Of a stretch of 64,000 nucleotides of DNA, positions 22,990 through 52,945 are shown one piece after another; the first letter of the stretch is position 1, and each line of letters starts with the position of its first letter. The notes below the pieces were generated by a model, which was not told the DNA's origin, did not search any database, and saw only the letters and a program-made list of their open reading frames with translations. The DNA lies in assembly GCF_051622035.1 (NCBI RefSeq), contig NC_135361.1, positions 27,397,205 to 27,461,204 of the forward strand, in the 5' to 3' direction. The translations under genes and the position numbers were made by a program. This stretch comes from Arctopsyche grandis (taxonomy: Eukaryota > Arthropoda > Insecta > Trichoptera > Hydropsychidae).

Positions 22990-24028
22990 CTTTGTTTATT
23001 CAGTATAAATAGGACAATTGGTTAGCCTAGTTATACAAGTAAAAATTTAATCGAACTCAAAATTTTAAACTAATTTTATTCTTGAAATAATTTAGGCAAA
23101 AGAACATTGCGTTTATAGGGCGAGTTAAAGGTTTTGGACCGTTTCCCGGCCTATGGAAATTCAGTTGTATTTTGAAGAGGATCTTTATTACTCGATTGAT
23201 ACAGATGTATTTGTATGTACAGCGAATTAGGTAGTTGATTCGCTAGAACGAGCCAGGTCGAGTTCTTGAAGCTCACTGGCATCTGGGGACGATGCGCTGG
23301 TTTATAAAGGTGTTGCTTGAGCAACGTGTAGCTGGGCTGGTGAGATCGCGTTCTGGAAGATTCCAGCGGGGTCGAGGTCTTCATTTGTGTTCTATGTTTG
23401 ATGCGTAGTTGCGTAGCTCCTTGGGATTTCCCGTGTACTCGTGATTGCGTATCTGGAACGAGTCGAATCGCATTTATGGGTAAGCTGGACGAAGTATGCC
23501 TAACTTTCGTGTACGAGAACAGGACGCGATTATGTCATTTGTACAGATTAAGTTCGATGGGGGAAATAAGTGATATCATCGACCCAGTTTCGTATGGTAC
23601 AAGTCGTGCTATATTCCTACACGTTAAAACGGTAAACGGATTATTACGCAAATTACGTTCACGCGCATGACAATCGTTGCCACAAAAATCGCAAATAAGT
23701 AGTATGTCTGGCACTCGAGTTCTTGTTAGTCTGATATTTCACGTGGGTTAATCTCGATGGATGGAATTTTCGGGTGCCAGATGTTCCGTGATTGAGATTT
23801 TAGTGACGTGCGTGAGATCGTTTTGTGCGGAATAATTAAATATTAATAAAGCAGTGTTAATATTTGCTTATTTACAAATCGCGTCATGGACGATATTCTT
23901 ACTCTTATGTTGTAGATCGATAAGTTTGACGTTTATGATTTTGACAGTTGCTCTAGGTTGTGGGATTCTCTCACATATTATTCGTACACACAATATAGTT
24001 TACACACAATTAACGCCCGAGTTTTAAA
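22990..24028. repeat. GC-richer block, possible LTR-element remnant, upstream of the ZAD gene
   Basis: From about 23115 to 23830 base composition rises and differs from its surroundings. The segment around 23652-23730 (CACGCGCATGACAATCGTTG ... CACTCGAGTTCTTG) recurs, diverged, at the end of the window (about 63920-64000), so it is repeated DNA. On the minus strand TGGCACCCGAAAA (about 23768-23780) resembles a primer-binding site next to a CGGAACA end, which suggests an LTR boundary near 23783; this is only a suggestion. Short frames on both strands (23151-23384 minus and 23398-23670 plus) show no known domain. The ZAD gene's promoter must lie in or next to this block. Confidence 0.4.
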
Positions 24029-25886
24029 ATGTCTTCCATAGATTTTGATAAAGTATGTAGAATATGTCTCAAAAACGACGTAGAACTCCATTCAATCTTC
24101 CATCACAACGACAACGAAGACCTTTCCTTCAAAATGAACTTTTGCAGTGACACAATTATATCAATAGATGATGGATTACCAAATAAAATTTGTCGCGAAT
24201 GTGTACAACTACTAAACAATGCCTACACGTATAAGACTATGAGCGTTGAGAGTGATAAAAAATTAAGAACCATACAAATTCTGAACAAGAAAGAACCTCA
24301 TATTTCAAACAAAAATATTTCACAATGTCGAAAAATATCTAGAAAGTGCAAAAAGAAACCTTTGAAGAGCGCCACTTCTGAGATGTATCAATGCGATATA
24401 TGTTCAAAAGTTTTCGCAATGAGAAGTGGATTGATACAACACATAGCTATACACACTGATAGTAATATATTCGTATGTGAAGTAAGTAAATTGAATACAT
24501 TTTGACTTTTTTCTTATTCACTCAGATTAGAGGACATACTTTTAAACAGCACGTACAGACTTCATAATAGTCACCTATGTATGTGAGTGATCATATTTTC
24601 AGATATGCGGTAGAGGATTTAGTCGACGTGATTACTTGTCTTCTCATCTTTACACTCATACTGGGGAGAAGAAGCACGCTTGCACCAAGTGTGAGTATAG
24701 AGCGTCGCAGCGATCCTCGCTAGTCCTCCACGAACGAACTCATACAGGGCTACGTCCTTACACGTGTGAAGTATGCGGCAAGACGTACATCAGCGGCAGC
24801 AAACTCATCGATCACAAACGACAACACGACCGAGTCAAAAACCACAAAGTAAAAATATGGATATACCACACAGAAAACACAATTTGATCATAAAAATTGT
24901 TCTTAGTTAATATATAATGTTACGCACTTTGAAACCGGTACGACTTATGTCCAACTTACTACATATTTTGTTTTAGTCAACTGGGTTCATTACAAATATG
25001 ATTAAATTGTGGCTGACTATACATTTTAGAATATCATTATTCTAAGCATAAGATCCGATCCACATGAGTAATATTTTTATAACCGCAACTTCAACAGACA
25101 TTTCATACAATTTTTTGTTGTATTGGTTTAACCTTTTGCCCGCGGCAATAAATATAGTGAACAAGCCCTGTACGCGGCACCTTTTGCGCGAATTTGGCAA
25201 TCGAGTTTTCGACCTTAAATACATATTTTAACATTTACTCAAGTAATCAGATATGTTAATTAACACATAAAGTATTATTTTAAACAATAAAATACATAAT
25301 ATATCTCGTAGTTTTGGCTTAATTGTCAAATAATCATTCTTCATACAATTGAGACGAATCGTCGCCATTGTTCAACAGACGTGACGTCACATAAACGAGG
25401 TTTCAGTATGGTTCCATAAAAAACTAATTTTAACTGGTATATATTCATTTTAAGCAAATTGAACAGATGGCATTCAACTCTCAGTAATATATTTAACTAA
25501 TTTTGAACCTTAAAACAGTTGAAATAGGCGCATATAAGGCTCAAAATCCCGTGCAAAGTTCAGAAATTCGCCCAAAGCTTCCATAGAAGACGGCCGCGGG
25601 CAAACGGTTAAATATCACTCATTGGCTAGATCTTTTAAGCGCAAACTGCATATGTATCTCCAATTCTTCTTATCAAATCTAATATTTTCAGTGTGAAATC
25701 TGTTCCAAATGCTTCGCCTTCAAAACCGGCCTGGAGGAGCACATAACGGTCACACACAATGGATTGAAGAAGTTCAAATGCTCGGTGTGCAACGTCTCGT
25801 ATGGCAGAAAACGAAACCTGACACGACACCTTAAACAAAAACATCCCACTCCACTCAATTTAACAAGTGAGAAGAAAAAAAAATAA
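24029..25886 (+). CDS. ZAD domain C2H2 zinc finger protein, 297 aa, three exons
   Basis: Exons are 24029-24481, 24603-24848 and 25692-25886, all joined between codons with GT-AG introns. Residues 9 to about 75 form a ZAD, an arthropod zinc-binding dimerisation domain, with cysteines at 10, 13, 55 and 58 (VCRICLK and KICRECV). A basic linker follows, then six C2H2 fingers: YQCDICSKVF, FVCEICGRGF, HACTKCEYRA, YTCEVCGKTY, KCEICSKCF and FKCSVCNVSY, several with TGEK/TGLR-type linkers. Two splice sites fall inside fingers 2 and 5, so exon order is confirmed by the completed fingers. The protein is expected to be a nuclear, DNA-binding transcription regulator acting as a dimer; its targets cannot be predicted here. 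Intron 2 contains a piggyBac-type MITE, and a SINE begins 11 bases after the stop. The C-terminal lysine run is encoded by an A-rich stretch abutting that SINE. Confidence 0.92.
25132..25607. mobile_element. piggyBac-type MITE in ZAD intron 2, TTAA duplication
   Basis: TTAA (25128-25131) then CCTTTTGCCCGCGGC opens the element, and GCCGCGGGCAAACGG then TTAA (25608-25611) closes it. TTAA target duplication with CCNTTTGCCCGCGGC ends fits the piggyBac superfamily. At 476 bp with no frame it is non-autonomous. It makes up more than half of the 843-bp intron. Confidence 0.85.
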
Positions 25887-27868: not shown

Positions 27869-28358
27869 TTGATTTTGATTTTAAAATGATTTTTATTATT
27901 ACAAAATTATGTTCACAATACATCTTATATCTATTTTAATAGCTACTGATCTACTGATCTATTTAACAATTTTAATTTAATTTTGTTAGTAATCATAGTA
28001 TTATATTATTCTAATGTTAATATGTACAGCGTAATAGGAAAAAGAGCTCAAAAACCCTATTTACAATTCTTATAAATGCTCATAATACATCTAATACATA
28101 ATATCAATTAAAGACTCTCTAAAGTCGATGGCCTAAAACAGATTGTGTTTAGGTAATCTGTGTTTATACCTGAAGATTATAGACATTTTGTTGTAATAAC
28201 CGAGACTCTTCATAAGTGTGTTAGTATGGTTATTAGTGATTCTGTCATAGAATCTACTGGTTAGTTTGTTAGTAATGTCTGTAACAAACGGAATATTATA
28301 AATGGCATGCAGTTTTTTCAACTTAGTATATATGGGTGTATTATAAATTATTTTTAGA
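27869..28358 (-). mobile_element. Jockey-type non-LTR copy, 490 bp, 5' truncated
   Basis: The minus strand encodes the last roughly 74 residues of the jockey protein (KIIYNTPIYTKLKKLHAIY ... RLPKHNLF) followed by the family 3' untranslated region and an AAAATC-rich tail. GGACATACCAGTTT flanks both sides (27855-27868 and 28359-28372), a 14-bp target duplication. It inserted right at the outer edge of the long inverted repeat at 28376. Confidence 0.92.
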
Positions 28359-28375
28359 GGACATACCAGTTTGTT

Positions 28376-31037
28376 CGGTGACCGGAAAGGTTGCTCGAAA
28401 GCGGTACCCACACGGGAAAATTTGGCTATTGTCGCAACCCACTATGGACAACTCGCCACTGCGATCCGCACAGAAACCGGTTTGACTTCTCGCCCGTCCC
28501 CACAAACTCTCGTACGCGCAGGTAGCAAATTTGACTGAAATACTATTGTCCCAATCGCCCATCCCCACCTATCACCATATACACACCATTGAAAGTTCAA
28601 CTGAAATACTTTTCGCACTCGCCGAAATTTTTCCCTAAGGCATACATATATGAACGCGTGAAGTTTTGTTTGTTTTCTCGTTACTAGTTTGTGTGGTTTA
28701 TAGTTAGCCGAGTATTTTTATGGTAGGATACTATAATATTAACATATGTACTTACTACTTTTTTATATTTTTTATTCGATTTTACATTCTAGTTGATTTT
28801 CAATTTTGTATTTTAAACAACAATTAGCGATGAAATTAATATCAGCCAAATATCATCGTATCCTGTCCAGTGGCTCGGATAGGATACGATGTTTTTTTTT
28901 TCAATTGCTGGTTTCATTGGTAATTTTTTTTTTTTTTGATAAAGTATGTATCGTGTTTATTAAGAAGTACATACATATGTTTATATGAATAAGGTTTGCA
29001 TTTTTGGTTTTTTATATGTGTTTTTATATGGATATATTGTATTATTATGATAACTTTCCTGATACTGTTTTTTTTCAACTTGCCGGTTTCATTTGTTATT
29101 TTTTTATTTGATAGTTCAATAAAATATGTATTGTGTTTATAACATGTATTATGTTCTATATATTTATGTTATTACAGATTATTATTTTTATTTATGTATT
29201 GAATATAATAAATTCTAGAAATAAAATTTTGTAATTTTTTTCATTTTCATTCACCTATGATAGTTTAATATTACACAATTTGTTTAATCTGCTAACTCTA
29301 TTCATACATAAACTAATAACAAATAAATTTATCACACAAGTAAGCATGAACTACGCATGTAAAAAGGGTAAGTTTTGGTATTTTAGGCGGTTTTTATTTT
29401 AATTAGCTATGTTATCAAAATACATACATATGTCCTTTATTCTTCATAATTGTTTATTATACATATCAATTCTTATACAAATCAAAATATTTTTTTTTAA
29501 TAAAGTCAAATTAATGTTTTCATTTTATATTATTATTTTTTGACATTAAAAACGTTTCAGAAAAATTAAATTTGATTGAAATACAGATTTAAAATTGGTA
29601 TTCTCCATGTTGAGGTTTGGAGCTACTTTACATCTAAATTTTCATGGCAATCGACTTTTGTTGTTTTTTTTTAGTTCTTAAAATCTAAAAATATTTATTT
29701 TTAAAATCAAATACATATTTAAATTATTTTAAAATTTTCGTCATTTCATTTTACAATTCAATCAACTGTTTTTAAAATTTCCCACGTATAATATGTACAT
29801 TGGAACAATCATTTTTATGGTTTTTGATAGAATTTGGACATTATTTTCATATATATTTAAAGGTGATGATAAGAAACTGTAAATTTTATGAAGCTCGTTT
29901 ATTTAAAAAAGCTTTTTGTTAAATTGATTCAATATTTTTTGTGTTCAAAGAAATTGAACCATTCTTTTTTGAAGAGAGGTCGCATTATTATCCTTTCTCA
30001 CAATTAAAAGTATTCTTATTTCGTGCAATAACAAAAACATATTCATTTGCTCAACCCCCTTACCTTAACTTCTCCCAAAAGAATTAAAAATATTCTCCTT
30101 CAAAAACTTTAAATCTAATTTAATTAATTATTGTTTATATTTTATTGTAAAATATAGAAATCATTATATTTTCCAAATTCACTCTCGTAATTGAGATCGA
30201 CCAAATTTTGCTTCGAAATCACCCGAGTTTATTATCATTTGCCAATAGCCCTTAAATATACTATGTACTTCAACTTTTGTTATTTCACACTATGGTAGTG
30301 TGAAAAAGCACATTCATATTTCAATTAAAATAAAGTTTGTGCATCCTTAAAGATCTGTCTTGAGATAAGCTTTTGCAAACAAAAAAAAATGGGCCGCCGT
30401 ACGATGAACGATTATCGGTCATAGCAGGTATAAAAAAAATGCACCATTGAGAAATCAACAAGAAAAAACAAAAATAATCAAATTCCAATGTAATATATTT
30501 TAATCAGTCTGGTTGCTTCCAGACACCCCAAATGCCGAGCCACTGGACAGGATACGATGATATTTGGCTGATATTAATTTCACCGCTAATTGTTGTTTAA
30601 AATACAAAATTGAAAATCAACTAGAATGTAAAATCGAATAAAAAATATAAAAAAGTAGTAAGTACATATGTTAATATTATAGTATCCTACCATAAAAATA
30701 CTCGGCTAACTATAAACCACACAAACTAGTGACGAGAAAACAAACAAAAATTCACGCGTTCATATATGTATGCCTTAGGGAAAATTTTCGGCGAGTGCGA
30801 AAAGTATTTCAGTTGAACTTTCAATGGTGTGTATATGGCGATAGGTGGGGATGGGCGATTGGGACAATAGTATTTCAGTCAAATTTGCTACCTGCGCGTA
30901 CGAGAGTTTGTGGGGACGGGCGAGAAGTCAAACCGGTTTCTGTGCGGATCGCAGTGGCGAGTTGTCCATAGTGGGTTGCGACAATAGCCAAATTTTCCCG
31001 TGTGGGTACCGCTTTCGAGCAACCTTTCCGGGAACCG
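28376..31037. mobile_element. 2.66 kb structure with two 503-bp inverted arms
   Basis: The arm 28376-28878 is matched in reverse complement by 30535-31037 with very few differences. Outer parts are GC-rich (CCGGAAAGGTTGCTCGAAAG ...), inner parts AT-rich, ending at CAGTGGCTCGG. Between them lie about 1.65 kb of AT-rich sequence without frames, including an imperfect tandem pair near 28890-28960 and 29063-29145. The inner end of the left arm runs into a short palindrome (ATCGTATCCT ... AGGATACGAT). The same 60-codon frame (starting MGMGDWDNSISVKFATCAYE) occurs in both arms because the arms are nearly identical; it has no known domain. This resembles a foldback-type or other non-autonomous element with long inverted repeats, or an inverted local duplication. 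No target duplication could be confirmed. Confidence 0.75.
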
Positions 31038-31339
31038 CTAAAACGCCATCTATTTTAAATGGGAAATCCTATGGAAACCGCATTACAATGTTGCCATAAT
31101 TACTGTTTCTGCTAATATTAAAAATATCAGGGTAAGTATACATAAATAGCGGATTGAACAAACGATTTAGAATACTTCAACTTATGCCCAATAGTTTGTA
31201 CATGAACAAACTAGTTCGTTTCGAACTGACTAGATTAATTGGTGTATGAATAAATTAGTATTTTCATGAACGAACGAAATGTACACTTGGACTGTAACAT
31301 ACATACATATTATCTACATGATTTTTGTCTTATGGAGGA

Positions 31340-41301: not shown

Positions 41302-43715
41302 TTGATTTTTTGATTTTTAAATGCTTTTTATTATTACGAAATTATGTTCACAATACATCTTATATCTATTTTAATAGCTACTGATCTACTGATCATTTTC
41401 TATTTTACAATTTTAATTTAATTTGGTTAGTAATCACAGTATTATATTATTCTAATGTTAATCTAAAGCATAATAGGAAAAAGAGCTCAAAAACCTATTT
41501 ACAATCCTTATAAATGTTCATAATACATCTAATACATAATATTAATTAAAGACTATCTAAAGTCGATGACCTAAAGCAGATTGTGTTTAGGTAATCTGTG
41601 TTTATACCTGAAGGGTATAGACATTTTGTTGTAATCACCGAGACTCTTCACAAGTGTGTTAGTATGGTTATTAGTGATTCTTTCATAGAATCTACTGGTT
41701 AGTTTGTTAGTAATGTCTGTAACAAACGGAATATTATATATAGCATGCAGTTTTTTCAGGTTAGTATATATGGGTGTATTATAAATTATTTTAAGGGATT
41801 TATTTTGTATTACTTGGAGCTTGGAAAGGTTAGTATTCGAGGCGTTATTCCATACAGGTGAAGCATAGGTTAATAATGGTAATATGAGCGCGCGATATAA
41901 TTTTATTTTATTTAGCGTTGATAAAGAACTATGGCGATTAAATATTGGATATATTGAGGATATACCCCGCATCGCCTTGCATTTCGCTGCCTCAATGTGA
42001 GGTGCCCATCTCATTCTTTTATCAAACGTTACTCCTAAATATTTTATTACTGACTGCCATTTCAGACTTTCTCCAGAGGGGATTTTCAGATCTGAACTTG
42101 GCTTATGTTTTCTAACACTAAAGAATATGGCGTCTGTTTTGGTTTGATTAATTTGAATTTTCCACTTAGTGAAGTGTTCAGTCATTGTTTTAATTGCAAA
42201 TTCAAGATTTTTAAGAATAGTGTCTGGTTTTTTGCTACTTGTGAAGCAAGCTGTATCATCTGCATATAGGGCTATGTGACAGTTTTTTGGAATAGGTATG
42301 TCATTTATATATATGGAGAACAAGAGTGGGCCAAGCAAGCTCCCCTGCGGAACGCCAGCTGCGATTATTTTTGGAGACGATAATTCATTATTTACGCTAA
42401 CCACTAGCTTTCTACGAGTTAAGTACGATTTGATGATGAGAATTAGGTAGTTTGGTATTTTGTTAATAAGGAGCTTATGAATGAGTCCATCGTGCCAAAC
42501 CGTGTCGAAGGCCTTTTCTATGTCGAGACATACCATTCCGGTACTTCTCTTCATATTAAAGTTCTTCGTCACGTGTTCAGTTAGTCTTGTTAGTTGTTGG
42601 GTCGTGGAATGTCCAGTGCGAAATCCAAATTGTTCATTTATTAATTTCTTATTTACGACTTTAAGTAAACGTGTGTAGATTATTTTTTCCAGAATTTTTG
42701 AAAGCGTGCAAAGTAAGCTAATGGGTCGATAATTGGCCGGGTTTTTTGAGCTTTTATCGGGCTTAAGTACGGGAATTACGTTGGCTGTTTTCCAGTATTC
42801 TGGGAAATACCCGGTGAGTAAACATGCGTTGAATATTTTAGATAGTGAGACTAAAGCTTTAAATGGAAGTTGTTTGATTGTGATGTTATCTATTGAATCT
42901 CGCCCAGGTGCCTTTTTATTTTTTAAATTACGTATTATATTTTGGATTTCACACGGATGCACCAATTTTATATTTTTAGTACTGTTAGTGGGAGTTTTTG
43001 TGATGATTTTAATGGACCGGTTGACTTTATTATGCGTTGGTATGTGATTGTAATGTTGTGTGAGTGTGTGATGTTTTTGGAAGGATTTTGATAATAGTTC
43101 TGCTTTGTCGCAATCACGCGTCACTGAGATTCCTGCATCATCTAATGGAGGAATCGAGTTTTTTGTCCTGCGAATCGCTTTAGCTAATTTCCATAGAGAG
43201 CCATCAACTGAGCTCAATTTTTCTAATTTTTTAGACCAAGCTTCATTTTTGATTTCTTTGATTCTAATTTTAATTTGATATGTGAGCTTATTAATTAATG
43301 TTTTCAATGCTGGATTTTTTGATGTTTGCCAAATTTTACGGAGTTTATTTTTACTTTTAATTAGATTTGCAACAAAGTCAGTTATCTCTAATTTGTGTTC
43401 AATGTATTGTGTCTTAGGTATGTGAAGGTGTTTGGATCGAGTTATTGATTCCGTTAGGTGTATTATGGAGCTGTCGATTTCGGTTTTGTTTGTGAGTGTG
43501 GTAGAAGTTAGAATGGTTTGGTCATTTATGTACGACTTGAACTCTCGCCAGTTAGCTCTCCCGTAATCCCAACTATGCTTGATGATTTCCTCGGGTTTCC
43601 CGTCGATTGAGAAGATTATCGGGAGATGATCAGACGACAGGGTTTGAAGGGCATTTGGTGTCGATATTTGCTTTTGGTGCATTTGGTGAAGGGCATTTGG
43701 TGTCGATAACTGCCC
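41302..43715 (-). mobile_element. Jockey-type non-LTR retrotransposon, 2.4 kb, 5' truncated
   Basis: AAATATTCATTT is duplicated at 41290-41301 and 43716-43727. The 3' end on the minus strand has a tail of AAAAATC-like repeats. The copy keeps a long reverse transcriptase frame but lacks the first open frame and nearly all of the endonuclease. A 27-bp stretch at the 5' edge (43688-43715) repeats sequence found a little further in (TCGACACCAAATGCCCTTCA), so the 5' junction holds a local duplication. Confidence 0.95.
41571..43682 (-). CDS. Jockey-type reverse transcriptase, 703 aa open frame
   Basis: This is the second-frame product of a jockey-clade retrotransposon, missing most of its N-terminal endonuclease; only the last endonuclease motif (SSDHLPIIFSI) remains. 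The reverse transcriptase is complete: KAPGRDSI, WKTANVIPVLKP, NYRPISLLCTLSKILEK, FGFRTGHSTTQQL, VCLDIEKAFDTVWHDGL (first catalytic Asp), GVPQGSLLGPLLF, ALYADDTACF (catalytic Asp pair) and KYLGVTFDKRM. A C-terminal region with weakly conserved sequence ends RLPKHNLL. There is no premature stop or frameshift in 703 codons, so the insertion is recent. The listed ATG is probably accidental, because the true start lay in the lost 5' part. Without the endonuclease this copy could not mobilise itself. Confidence 0.93.
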   Translation of the reverse strand: MHQKQISTPNALQTLSSDHLPIIFSIDGKPEEIIKHSWDYGRANWREFKSYINDQTILTSTTLTNKTEIDSSIIHLTESITRSKHLHIPKTQYIEHKLEITDFVANLIKSKNKLRKIWQTSKNPALKTLINKLTYQIKIRIKEIKNEAWSKKLEKLSSVDGSLWKLAKAIRRTKNSIPPLDDAGISVTRDCDKAELLSKSFQKHHTLTQHYNHIPTHNKVNRSIKIITKTPTNSTKNIKLVHPCEIQNIIRNLKNKKAPGRDSIDNITIKQLPFKALVSLSKIFNACLLTGYFPEYWKTANVIPVLKPDKSSKNPANYRPISLLCTLSKILEKIIYTRLLKVVNKKLINEQFGFRTGHSTTQQLTRLTEHVTKNFNMKRSTGMVCLDIEKAFDTVWHDGLIHKLLINKIPNYLILIIKSYLTRRKLVVSVNNELSSPKIIAAGVPQGSLLGPLLFSIYINDIPIPKNCHIALYADDTACFTSSKKPDTILKNLEFAIKTMTEHFTKWKIQINQTKTDAIFFSVRKHKPSSDLKIPSGESLKWQSVIKYLGVTFDKRMRWAPHIEAAKCKAMRGISSIYPIFNRHSSLSTLNKIKLYRALILPLLTYASPVWNNASNTNLSKLQVIQNKSLKIIYNTPIYTNLKKLHAIYNIPFVTDITNKLTSRFYERITNNHTNTLVKSLGDYNKMSIPFRYKHRLPKHNLL

Positions 43716-44035
43716 AAATATTCATTTGCTTTTTATCAAATTTATTTGAATCGAAAAAAAAATCGACTCGTCGTCGTAGAAGTTTTGACTTGTTTACGAA
43801 ATTCCAAACAAAGATATATACATACTTACATACAAATTCTCTTTCGAAATTATATATTAGACTAGTGTTTTAACCCGGCTTCGCTCGGTATTTGTAATAT
43901 AAACCGCTTAAACATGGCCAATCTATGTAATAGTAAACATTTTACGAAATTTATTTGCATAGTTTTATTTTATTTTGAACATTCATTTTTTTTTCTACGA
44001 ACCAACAATAGTTATAAAGTCTCTTTCGAAATTAT

Positions 44036-46829: not shown

Positions 46830-47696
46830 TCACCAGTAAGGCACGTCGCAGGGTCCGTGCCAGGCAGCATATTCAGACCATAGTGCGGGTGGTTGATAGG
46901 CCACGCTGTTCTTAGAAGGTGCCGAAACAGCTGGAGGTGGAGATTCAGACCTGGAGACGTCTCCTCGTTTGGACACTTTGTAATTAGTACCTCCGTTACT
47001 GTCCCAATATTCTTTACCCTGGCAGCGGAAGCAGACGCAGAAGGCCAAGTAGTTCGACACAACTGGCAGTAGGACTTTGAAGCTGAACGTGTCGTAGATA
47101 CTGTAAGCACCTGCCGAAGACACCGGAACGTCTACGTATGTGCAAAAGGCATCCTCAGAAGTGACCCAATTGTCAGCAGACCACCTCACAACCACTTCCT
47201 TGTGAAAGTCCAAGTTTTTCACTTTGACTGTGCCCGTGAGGAAGCCGTCTTTGGCCTTGATGATAACGTTCTCCAAGGACACGTTATCATCGTTGATTCT
47301 GCGTCTGAAGTCTACGTAATCGGAGGCCGGCTGGGCGAAGCCCAACTCCCAGTTGGGAAGCGAAGAAGTCACCGCTGGAGTCGAGTGGAGGGACCAATGA
47401 GGTGGTACGTCTGAAGGCTCCCACATGACGCGGACTTGAGTCAAAGACAATCCCTGGTCGTCGGCAAAGACCACTCGCTTCTTGATCCGAGCTGGAGGAC
47501 TTGGGGCGTCCGGACGCAGGCAAGGCCTGGGTGTTTGAGGCACACCAGCAGCTTTGAACGGAAGACATGGAGATGAGTTCCTCGTGGGTAGCGGTCTTCT
47601 TCCGTACACACGGCAAGGATGTGTCGGGGCATATTCCATCAGGAACCCTCCTGGAGGACTGTGCCCGTAAGAGGGGAATCCGTGCGAAGCCAACAT
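46830..47696 (-). CDS. Protein phosphatase 1 regulatory subunit 3 type (glycogen-targeting), 288 aa
   Basis: The product brings the PP1 catalytic subunit to glycogen, where it promotes dephosphorylation of glycogen-metabolising enzymes. Residues 74-77 (in IKKRVVFADD) form the RVxF motif that docks PP1. Residues about 133-241 are a CBM21 carbohydrate-binding domain: VSLENVIIKAKDGFLTGTVKVKNL, VVVRWSADNW and the hallmark EYWDSNGGTNYKV. A conserved GFAQPASDYVDFRRR stretch joins them. The N-terminus is proline-rich and low complexity; the tail is serine/proline-rich and ends DVPYW. The start is the first ATG (47696); no earlier in-frame ATG exists before a stop. Coding is intronless here, but a 3' splice site at about 47962 shows a 5' non-coding exon upstream. 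Similar insect proteins include the Gbs-type glycogen-binding subunits; which paralogue this is cannot be decided from the sequence. Confidence 0.95.
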   Translation of the reverse strand: MLASHGFPSYGHSPPGGFLMEYAPTHPCRVYGRRPLPTRNSSPCLPFKAAGVPQTPRPCLRPDAPSPPARIKKRVVFADDQGLSLTQVRVMWEPSDVPPHWSLHSTPAVTSSLPNWELGFAQPASDYVDFRRRINDDNVSLENVIIKAKDGFLTGTVKVKNLDFHKEVVVRWSADNWVTSEDAFCTYVDVPVSSAGAYSIYDTFSFKVLLPVVSNYLAFCVCFRCQGKEYWDSNGGTNYKVSKRGDVSRSESPPPAVSAPSKNSVAYQPPALWSEYAAWHGPCDVPYW

Positions 47697-47962
47697 ATTT
47701 ACTAAGGCACTGTTCAATCCGCAATAAAAAGAGGAACTCTGAAGTAAATGATACGTGTTTTTGGTTTACAATTGCACTACACGACTATTATTGCTATACA
47801 CCATTATTTTTATTATCGTTCTATAATTTATACGAGTACCCGTTCGTTTATTATTTATTTTTGTACGTGTACAAAACACTTTATAATTTATTTATTTCCA
47901 TTCAGCAGATTTGATTTATAATGTTGTCGGTCGCCCAGCGATTCATCTTCTTAGTTGACAAT
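47697..47962 (-). promoter_or_regulatory. 5' untranslated exon part of the PP1 subunit gene, with a short upstream frame
   Basis: On the minus strand GTTTAATTTCAG/ATTGTC (at 47962) is a strong splice acceptor, and the sequence from there to the ATG at 47696 would be 5' untranslated. It contains a 13-codon upstream frame starting ATGAATCGCTGG, which could lower translation of the main frame. The upstream exon and promoter were not located. Confidence 0.5.
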
Positions 47963-51019: not shown

Positions 51020-52945
51020 AGTATACCAAATTTGGCGGTTCTTTGTATGAATGAAGACACTCATACAACATCGTCTGAACTTATTTATTATTTATATAAG
51101 AGCTCTACCAAAACCTGTCAAAGGTCTAAGTTCAGAATACCGTGAGAGAATATACCAAATTTGGCGGCTTTATGCATACCTGTATGTATGTATAAAAAAC
51201 TACGTTATTGCATAGCGGGAAAACACTAGCCTGGTGTAGCCCTAGCGTTTTTATATAAAAGCTTTCGATCCCGGACTCTGATCCTTTCCAAGATTCATCT
51301 AAGGTCTAAGTTAAGACACGGTGAAACAATAGACCAACTTTGGTGGTCTTGTGTTAAAAACTAGCCTTTCATACTCGCCCAGCGTCAATTAGGCGTTGTT
51401 TTTTGTATGGGAGTCCTTCAACCCCGAGCTCCGAGCACTTAAAACCCAACTAGTGTCTAAATTAGGGTGACGTGAGGCAGTATACTAAATTTGTCAGTTT
51501 TATAATGAAAACTATGCAATTACATCGCCGGAAAAACACTATCGCCCGGCGTGATCCAAGCATTTTTGTATGGCAGAGCTTCGATCCCCAGCTCCGAGCC
51601 TTTTTAAAACCCACCTAGTGTTTAAGTTAGGGTTCCTTGAGACAGTGTACTAAATTTGGCAGTTTTATATTCAAAAAATGAGCAATTACATAGCGGAAAA
51701 ACACTATCACCCGGGGTGATCTTGGCGTTTTTGTAGGGGAGCTCTTTGACCCCGAGCCATTTTAAAACCCAACTAGTGTCTAAGTTAGAGTACCGTGAGC
51801 TAGTATACCAAATTTGGCAGTTTTATATTGAAAACTAAGCAATAACATGATCCAGCGTGATCCAAGCATTTTTGTATGGGAGCTCTTCTATTCCGAGCTT
51901 CAAGCCTTTATAAAACCCACCTAGTGTCTATGTTAGGGTACTTTGATACAGTATACCGAATTTGGCAATTTTATATTGAAAAATATGCAATTAAATAACG
52001 TAAAAACAGTATTGCCCGGCGTGATCCAAGCGTTTTTGTATGGGAGATCTACGATAACGTGCCCCAAGCCTTTTTAAAACCCAACTAGTGTCTAAGTTAG
52101 GGTACTTTAAAGCGATATACCAAATTTAGCAGTTGTACATGTATATTGAAAAAACTATCAATTACATACATAACGGAAAACTGTATATCGCCCGGCGTGA
52201 CCCAAGCATTTTTGTATGGGAGATCTGCGATCCCAAGCTCCAAACCCTTTTAAAACCCAACTAGTGTCTAAGTTGGGGTACCGTGAAGTAGTACATATAC
52301 GAAATTTGTCAGTTGAATATTGAAAACTATGCAATTACATACATATAAAACTGTATATCGCCCGGCGTGACCCAAGCATTTTTGTATAGGAGATCTGCGA
52401 TCCCATGCTCCAAGTCCTTCTAAAACCCAACTAGTGTCTAAGTTGGAGTACCGTGAAGTAGTACATATACGAAATTTGTCAGTTGAATATTGAAAACTAT
52501 GCAATTACATACATATAAAACTGTATATCGCCCGGCGTGACCCAAGCATTTTTGTATAGGAGATCTGCGATCCCATGCTCCAAGTCCTTCTAAAACCCAA
52601 CTAGTGTCTAAGTTGGAGTACCGTGAAGTAGTACATATACGAAATTTGTCAGTTGAATATTGAAAACTATGCAATTACATACATATAAAACTGTATATCG
52701 CCCGGCGTGACCCAAGCATTTTTGTATAGGAGATCTGCGATCCCATGCTCCAAGTCCTTCTAAAACCCAACTAGTGTCTAAGTTAGGGTACCGTGAGGTA
52801 GTATACAAAATTTGGCAGTTTTATATTAAAAACTAAGTAATAGCATAGCGGAAAAATGCTATCGCCCAGCGTAATCAAGCATTTTTGTATGTGAGCTCTA
52901 CGATTCCGTGCTCCAAGCCTTTTTAAAACCCATCTAATGTATGTT
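51020..52945. repeat. 170-bp tandem repeat array
   Basis: Units share CCCGGCGTGA(T/C)CCAAGCATTT, then TTTGTATGGGAG, CCGAGCTC, AAAACCCAACTAGTGTCTAA and GTACCGTGA. They are diverged on the left (from about 51020) and nearly identical on the right, where 52268-52800 holds three copies exactly 170 bp apart. Frames of 78 codons repeat with the unit and are not genes. Confidence 0.93.

Follow-up and report, generated by a model that had tools for sequence, protein, structure and literature searches.

The inverted-repeat element at positions 28377-31036 (2660 bp) of the window, by which we mean the whole stretch of 64,000 nucleotides analysed here, is almost certainly a non-autonomous member of a Mutator-like (MULE) family of DNA transposons, characterised by a FLYWCH-MULE transposase and by long terminal inverted repeats. 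Its place is on contig C7 in an assembly of 475.7 Mb and 189 contigs. Its two arms (28376-28878 and 30535-31037), described in the initial annotation as near-identical inverted arms of 503 bp, are indeed reverse complements of one another, with 98.6% identity over 503 bp and without gaps, which is far above chance since the next-longest inverted pair within the same 3.8 kb measures merely 30 bp at 70%. Aligning the arm starts and flanks of other copies sets one element end at GGTGACCGG... and the opposite end at ...CCGGGAACC, so that the arms as first annotated hold good while the element itself spans 28377-31036 and not 28376-31037. Within these bounds the left terminal inverted repeat (28377-28878, plus strand) begins with the tip GGTGACC and the right one (30535-31036, minus strand) with the tip GGTTCCC; they differ at 7 of 502 aligned positions, two of which are the tip dinucleotide. 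The sequence between the arms proved to be as AT-rich and frameless as had been claimed for a core of about 1.65 kb (1656 bp; GC 0.209 at 29001-30000; no coding frame longer than 84 codons from stop to stop). The reported GC richness of the outer arm halves can be seen by eye in the sequence, the small palindrome at the inner edge is present as well (28848-28868 with 28877-28897, 86%), and TRF lists no tandem array within the arms.

The window element belongs to a multi-copy family. One arm has at least 47 matches in the 475.7-Mb source genome (40 of 81 candidates scored), and a search with the core (28890-30520) returned at least 67 match rows, the window itself included (40 of 314 candidates scored). 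Among the matches listed, the only full-length ones to the core besides the window are on C3 (97%; locus L028) and C13 (95%; locus L009), and the core is matched in part at many further places. With these arm matches and the two further full-length core matches a single-copy structure, which would have spoken against a transposon, is ruled out. In 13 further paired copies the ends are the same as in the window element, apart from a one-base difference at a tip of L015. The flanks were read for 14 of the 18 tip pairs found in the genome (those at C2:30215023, C10:2305898, C12:24117774 and C13:28918503 were left out), and in 10 of these 14 paired copies they form a perfect 9-bp target duplication, in one more a duplication with 8 of 9 positions alike, and in three, namely the window copy, L012 and L018, none; as a control, 182 mismatched flank pairings reach at most 6 of 9. 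The earlier expectation of a transposon with many copies, shared ends and a constant duplication length is thus supported at the level of the family, with a length of 9 bp.

The identity of the family is indicated by its long copy L009 (6835 bp), whose arms measure 804 bp at 98.9% identity. Its minus strand encodes a 336-residue protein, P0001, with a MULE transposase domain (PF10551; 2.7e-11; score 44.2 bits, cut-off 27.6) and a FLYWCH domain (PF04500; 8.2e-09) in the same frame. Because of these two domains we assign the family, on sequence grounds, to the Mutator superfamily of DNA transposons. Terminal inverted repeats of Mutator elements are often longer than 100 bp and their target duplications measure 8-10 bp; the family shows both features (arms of 503 bp in the window, 804 bp in L009), although the window copy does not have the duplication. 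Likewise, a FLYWCH zinc finger in frame with the MULE domain, as in P0001, defines the Phantom or FLYWCH-type (Tm1-like) class of MULEs. A reservation concerns present activity: the L009 transposase frame is in two pieces, the second of which follows in another frame and is without a Pfam match, so that the transposase gene looks interrupted in that copy. By analogy with the superfamily, transposase supplied from a longer copy would bind both tips, excise the element and insert it with a 9-bp duplication.

P0001 has 121 matches in the genome, few of them close. The loci L048-L058 represent further MULE lineages, with 32 to 36% identity to P0001; open frames of 487 to 494 codons are present at 9 of these 11 loci, in one case with a stop inside the match. 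A diverged relative at L062:4258-6849 is about 87% identical to L009; its GGTTCCC-type arm is only about 78 bp long and is followed by sequence resembling a transposase start, and in a search for its second end no matching arm was found. Finally, FLYWCH-like matches cluster at C11:1200759-1308616, where one frame runs to 1515 codons; the cluster may represent a host gene of the type of mod(mdg4). Taken together with the zf-AD zinc-finger exon of the window (24014-24505), these matches make an insect host probable.

Two quite different readings of the structure have to be weighed against this assignment. That the inverted arms stem from an error of assembly, or from an ordinary segmental duplication in inverted orientation, would agree with the lack of a target duplication at the window copy, and is nevertheless scarcely credible, as the same ends and arms occur in 13 other copies elsewhere and 2.66 kb would be short relative to long reads; we reject both an artefact and a single copy on the strength of copy number and shared ends. 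A Foldback or Galileo-type element with long inverted repeats, that is, a member of the P superfamily or of FB, would account for long arms, variable interiors and some copies devoid of target duplications. Yet the domains found are MULE and FLYWCH, the duplications are of 9 bp as compared to 7 bp in Galileo according to the available part of that report (PMC3573991), and the arms of the window copy hold no TRF array. Membership in this group is therefore very improbable, and was rejected in view of a MULE domain and 9-bp duplications in place of a P-type transposase and 7 bp. The initial term "foldback-type" is apt for the shape of the element and fails for its superfamily, which PF10551 in the family marks as Mutator.

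The window copy can be read as such a longer element shortened by an internal deletion. Its core and arms are colinear with L009 and L028: positions 513-2655 of the element align in reverse with positions 2109-6 of L009 at 95.5%, and with L028 at 97.2%, and the left 502 bp correspond to the outer part of the L009 repeat. The core proper (28889-30534, minus strand) is part of a longer segment that aligns, in reverse orientation, with the side of L009 and L028 that appears not to code. The length of 503 bp first given for the arms is true of this copy; compared with the 804-bp arms of its 6835-bp relative it is a truncated length, the left repeat being cut at its inner edge, whereas beyond the right repeat the likeness to the long L009 repeat continues inward to about 30218. 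Between the left repeat and the core lie 10 nt (28879-28888, plus strand) that are outside both matches, that differ from L009 and L028, and that together with their neighbours mirror the adjacent arm at 14 of 15 positions as an inverted pair; we read them as filler at the deletion junction. Most simply, to judge by these alignments, a single internal deletion would have taken out the side with the transposase, shortened one arm from some 800 to 503 bp and been repaired with a brief snap-back filler. Such an event would explain at once why the arm is 503 bp long, why the core lacks long frames and where the small palindrome comes from. Against filler as the source of the palindrome one may set the pentamer GATAC, which is all that L009 and L028 share with the window near the junction.

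But why would the window copy have no target duplication when most of its relatives do? The 9-mers at the position of the duplication, AGTTTGTTC on the left (28368-28376) and GCTAAAACG on the right (31037-31045), have 1 of 9 positions in common. Possible causes are ectopic recombination and a subsequent change in the flank, and for Galileo copies without matching duplications the authors infer ectopic recombination (PMC3573991, as far as the accessible part of the paper goes). The whole genome was searched, allowing at most 2 mismatches, for a GGTTCCC tip next to AGTTTGTTC, as expected of one reciprocal product; this gave 7 matches, all with 2 mismatches, as against 5 in the reversed control, and a recombinant origin of the window copy thus gains no support from it. 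One of the seven, C11:7277429-7277446, has a GGTGACC-like tip beside an exact AGTTTGTTC; it may be due to chance, it is absent from the tip census described below, and a simple recombination model predicts the other tip. A 5'-truncated LINE tail (27869-28358, minus strand), which over 500 bp shares 92.8% identity with the LINE at 41.3-41.8 kb, sits between two copies of GGACATACCAGTTT and comes within 19 bp of the MULE end. It is a separate insertion outside the element and does not explain the absent duplication of the window copy.

The two tips of an element are consistently unlike. A genome-wide census in which the two bases of the dinucleotide were left free found 56 tips, 27 with GA, 28 with TC and one with TT, and none in a reversed control. 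Convergent tips less than 10 kb apart form 18 pairs, and all 18 are heterotypic, combining GGTGACC with GGTTCCC (once with GGTTTCC); 20 of the 56 tips are unpaired. In the alignment of the arms, all 12 pairs differ at columns 4 and 5, and 6 of the 12 at column 11. The first 50 columns contain 37 within-pair differences in 600 comparisons, 24 of them in columns 4 and 5 and 6 in column 11; leaving these three columns out, 7 differences in 564 remain, which resembles the later blocks of 50 columns (0 to 6 each), so that only columns 4, 5 and 11 stand out and not the whole outer arm. The tip dinucleotides may stay unlike either because the transposase needs one of each or because conversion stops short of the end.

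Apart from their tips the arms of one copy are more alike than arms of different copies. Arm statistics were taken from 12 pairs, or from the 10 pairs in which each arm has at least 390 bp; in the latter, mean divergence within a copy is 1.0% (0.4 to 2.0%) as compared to 3.0% between copies, and random re-pairing, which ignores subfamily structure, gave a value as low in 0 of 10000 trials. If the arms were alike merely because the copies are young, without any homogenisation, the low divergence within copies would be expected, as would the observation that the outer arm, columns 4, 5 and 11 aside, is no more divergent than the other blocks. We nevertheless regard this explanation as improbable, since gaps that separate subfamilies are found in both arms of a copy (one of 14 bp in 5 pairs, one of 32 bp in 4), which requires a past transfer between arms and says nothing of a present one; a 9-bp gap of L016 that lies in one arm only is a counter-case. 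Homogenisation of the arms by recombination or conversion would account for the shared indels. A process confined to the single copy is however not the whole of it: the nearest relative of an arm is often found in another copy and not in its own partner, so that exchange between copies or shared subfamily descent explains part of the likeness. The initial annotation had left the choice between a recent event and ongoing homogenisation, and our results favour homogenisation; that it goes on now does not follow from them.

The interior is found in both orientations relative to the tips. With the sequence just inside the L009 repeats as orientation markers, 14 of 25 mapped loci could be classified, 4 with the arrangement of L009 (L009, L010, L024 and L027) and 10 with the opposite one (the window copy, L011-L017, L025 and L028). 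The 11 loci not classifiable are L018-L023, L026 and L059-L062; at L020, L023 and L062 interior pieces are present and a second tip of the form searched for was not found. In a tree of 9 copies (the RU tree; the LU tree was set aside for its long branches to L025 and L027) the sister pairs L009/L011 (support 0.80) and L010/L012 (support 0.95) are opposite in orientation, which if the tree is right requires at least two changes of orientation, and L011 differs from L009 at both inner junctions. This suggests that the arms recombine and flip the interior, and a crossover between the two arms of one copy, which would invert what lies between them, is the simplest cause of the two orientations. 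One might alternatively suppose that the interior stays as it is and the short tips are exchanged, by conversion or by recombination between copies. A change of only a few base pairs would then suffice, and chimeric elements that arose by exchange are described for Galileo in the part of the report at hand (PMC3573991); yet both tips of one copy would have to swap, and homotypic pairs number 0 of 18, which leaves tip exchange an unlikely, if serious, explanation. Going one step beyond inversion as such, the arms may constitute an inversion switch, in which the interior including the transposase gene flips repeatedly between permanently different tips, and in which the need for one tip of each kind keeps the dinucleotide from being homogenised. 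We put this forward tentatively, as plausible if just short of probable. In the literature searched, which comprised parts of open-licence papers, we met no description of interior flipping in MULEs, although the words "inversion of the internal" occur in one further paper (PMC2213677).

Many of these traits have been described before. Judged by the available parts of the reports, Tm1 and Galileo are close precedents for the family described here. Tm1, a Mutator/Foldback family of root-knot nematodes, likewise has a Phantom-like MULE transposase, long arms, mostly 9-bp duplications, some copies without a duplication, and 7-bp motifs at the two tips that are unlike in the majority of copies (24 of 39 and 20 of 22), and unlike tips occur also in other MULEs according to the same paper (PMC3169594). 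In contrast, the Tm1 arms as described there contain tandem units of about 14 bp and have a mean identity of 93.15% (PMC3169594), whereas the window arms hold no TRF array, arms in our family differ by 0.4 to 2.0% within a copy (10 full pairs), and the tips read GGTGACC and GGTTCCC. Galileo, a P-superfamily element of Drosophila, shares the long and changeable arms, the exchange between copies and chimeric copies without matching duplications, and differs in the superfamily of its transposase and in its 7-bp duplications (PMC3573991). Muta1 of Aedes aegypti is, as far as its report was accessible, an insect MULE as well, with 8-9-bp duplications and many shortened derivatives with truncated arms, and is set apart by arms of 145 bp, by 12-bp subterminal repeats and by an activity demonstrated in yeast (PMC5225508). 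In its accessible part a survey of arthropod MULEs from 2026 distinguishes twelve clades, in which arms range from 13 to 1193 bp and whole elements from 1.4 to 10.0 kb; these ranges include the values found here, the arms in the survey being typically 20-95 bp long (PMC13359780). Unlike tips, long arms and deletion derivatives each have precedents in these sources, then, and the window element itself is an ordinary one. The family as a whole provides a natural record of change in long-armed DNA transposons, with arms that are alike, fixed unlike tips, interiors lying either way and deletions joined by filler. In combining heterotypic tips in 18 of 18 pairs with both orientations of the interior, it would also make a need of the MULE transposase for two unlike ends testable.

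The remainder of the window contains further repeats and probable host sequences. A LINE whose open frame extends over 716 codons and which has a reverse transcriptase domain occupies 41571-43721, and a tandem array of about 9 copies of a unit of about 170 bp lies at 51400-52940. Two frames are probably exons of host genes, one at 46830-47765 with a CBM_21 carbohydrate-binding module and one at 24014-24505 with a zf-AD zinc-finger domain.
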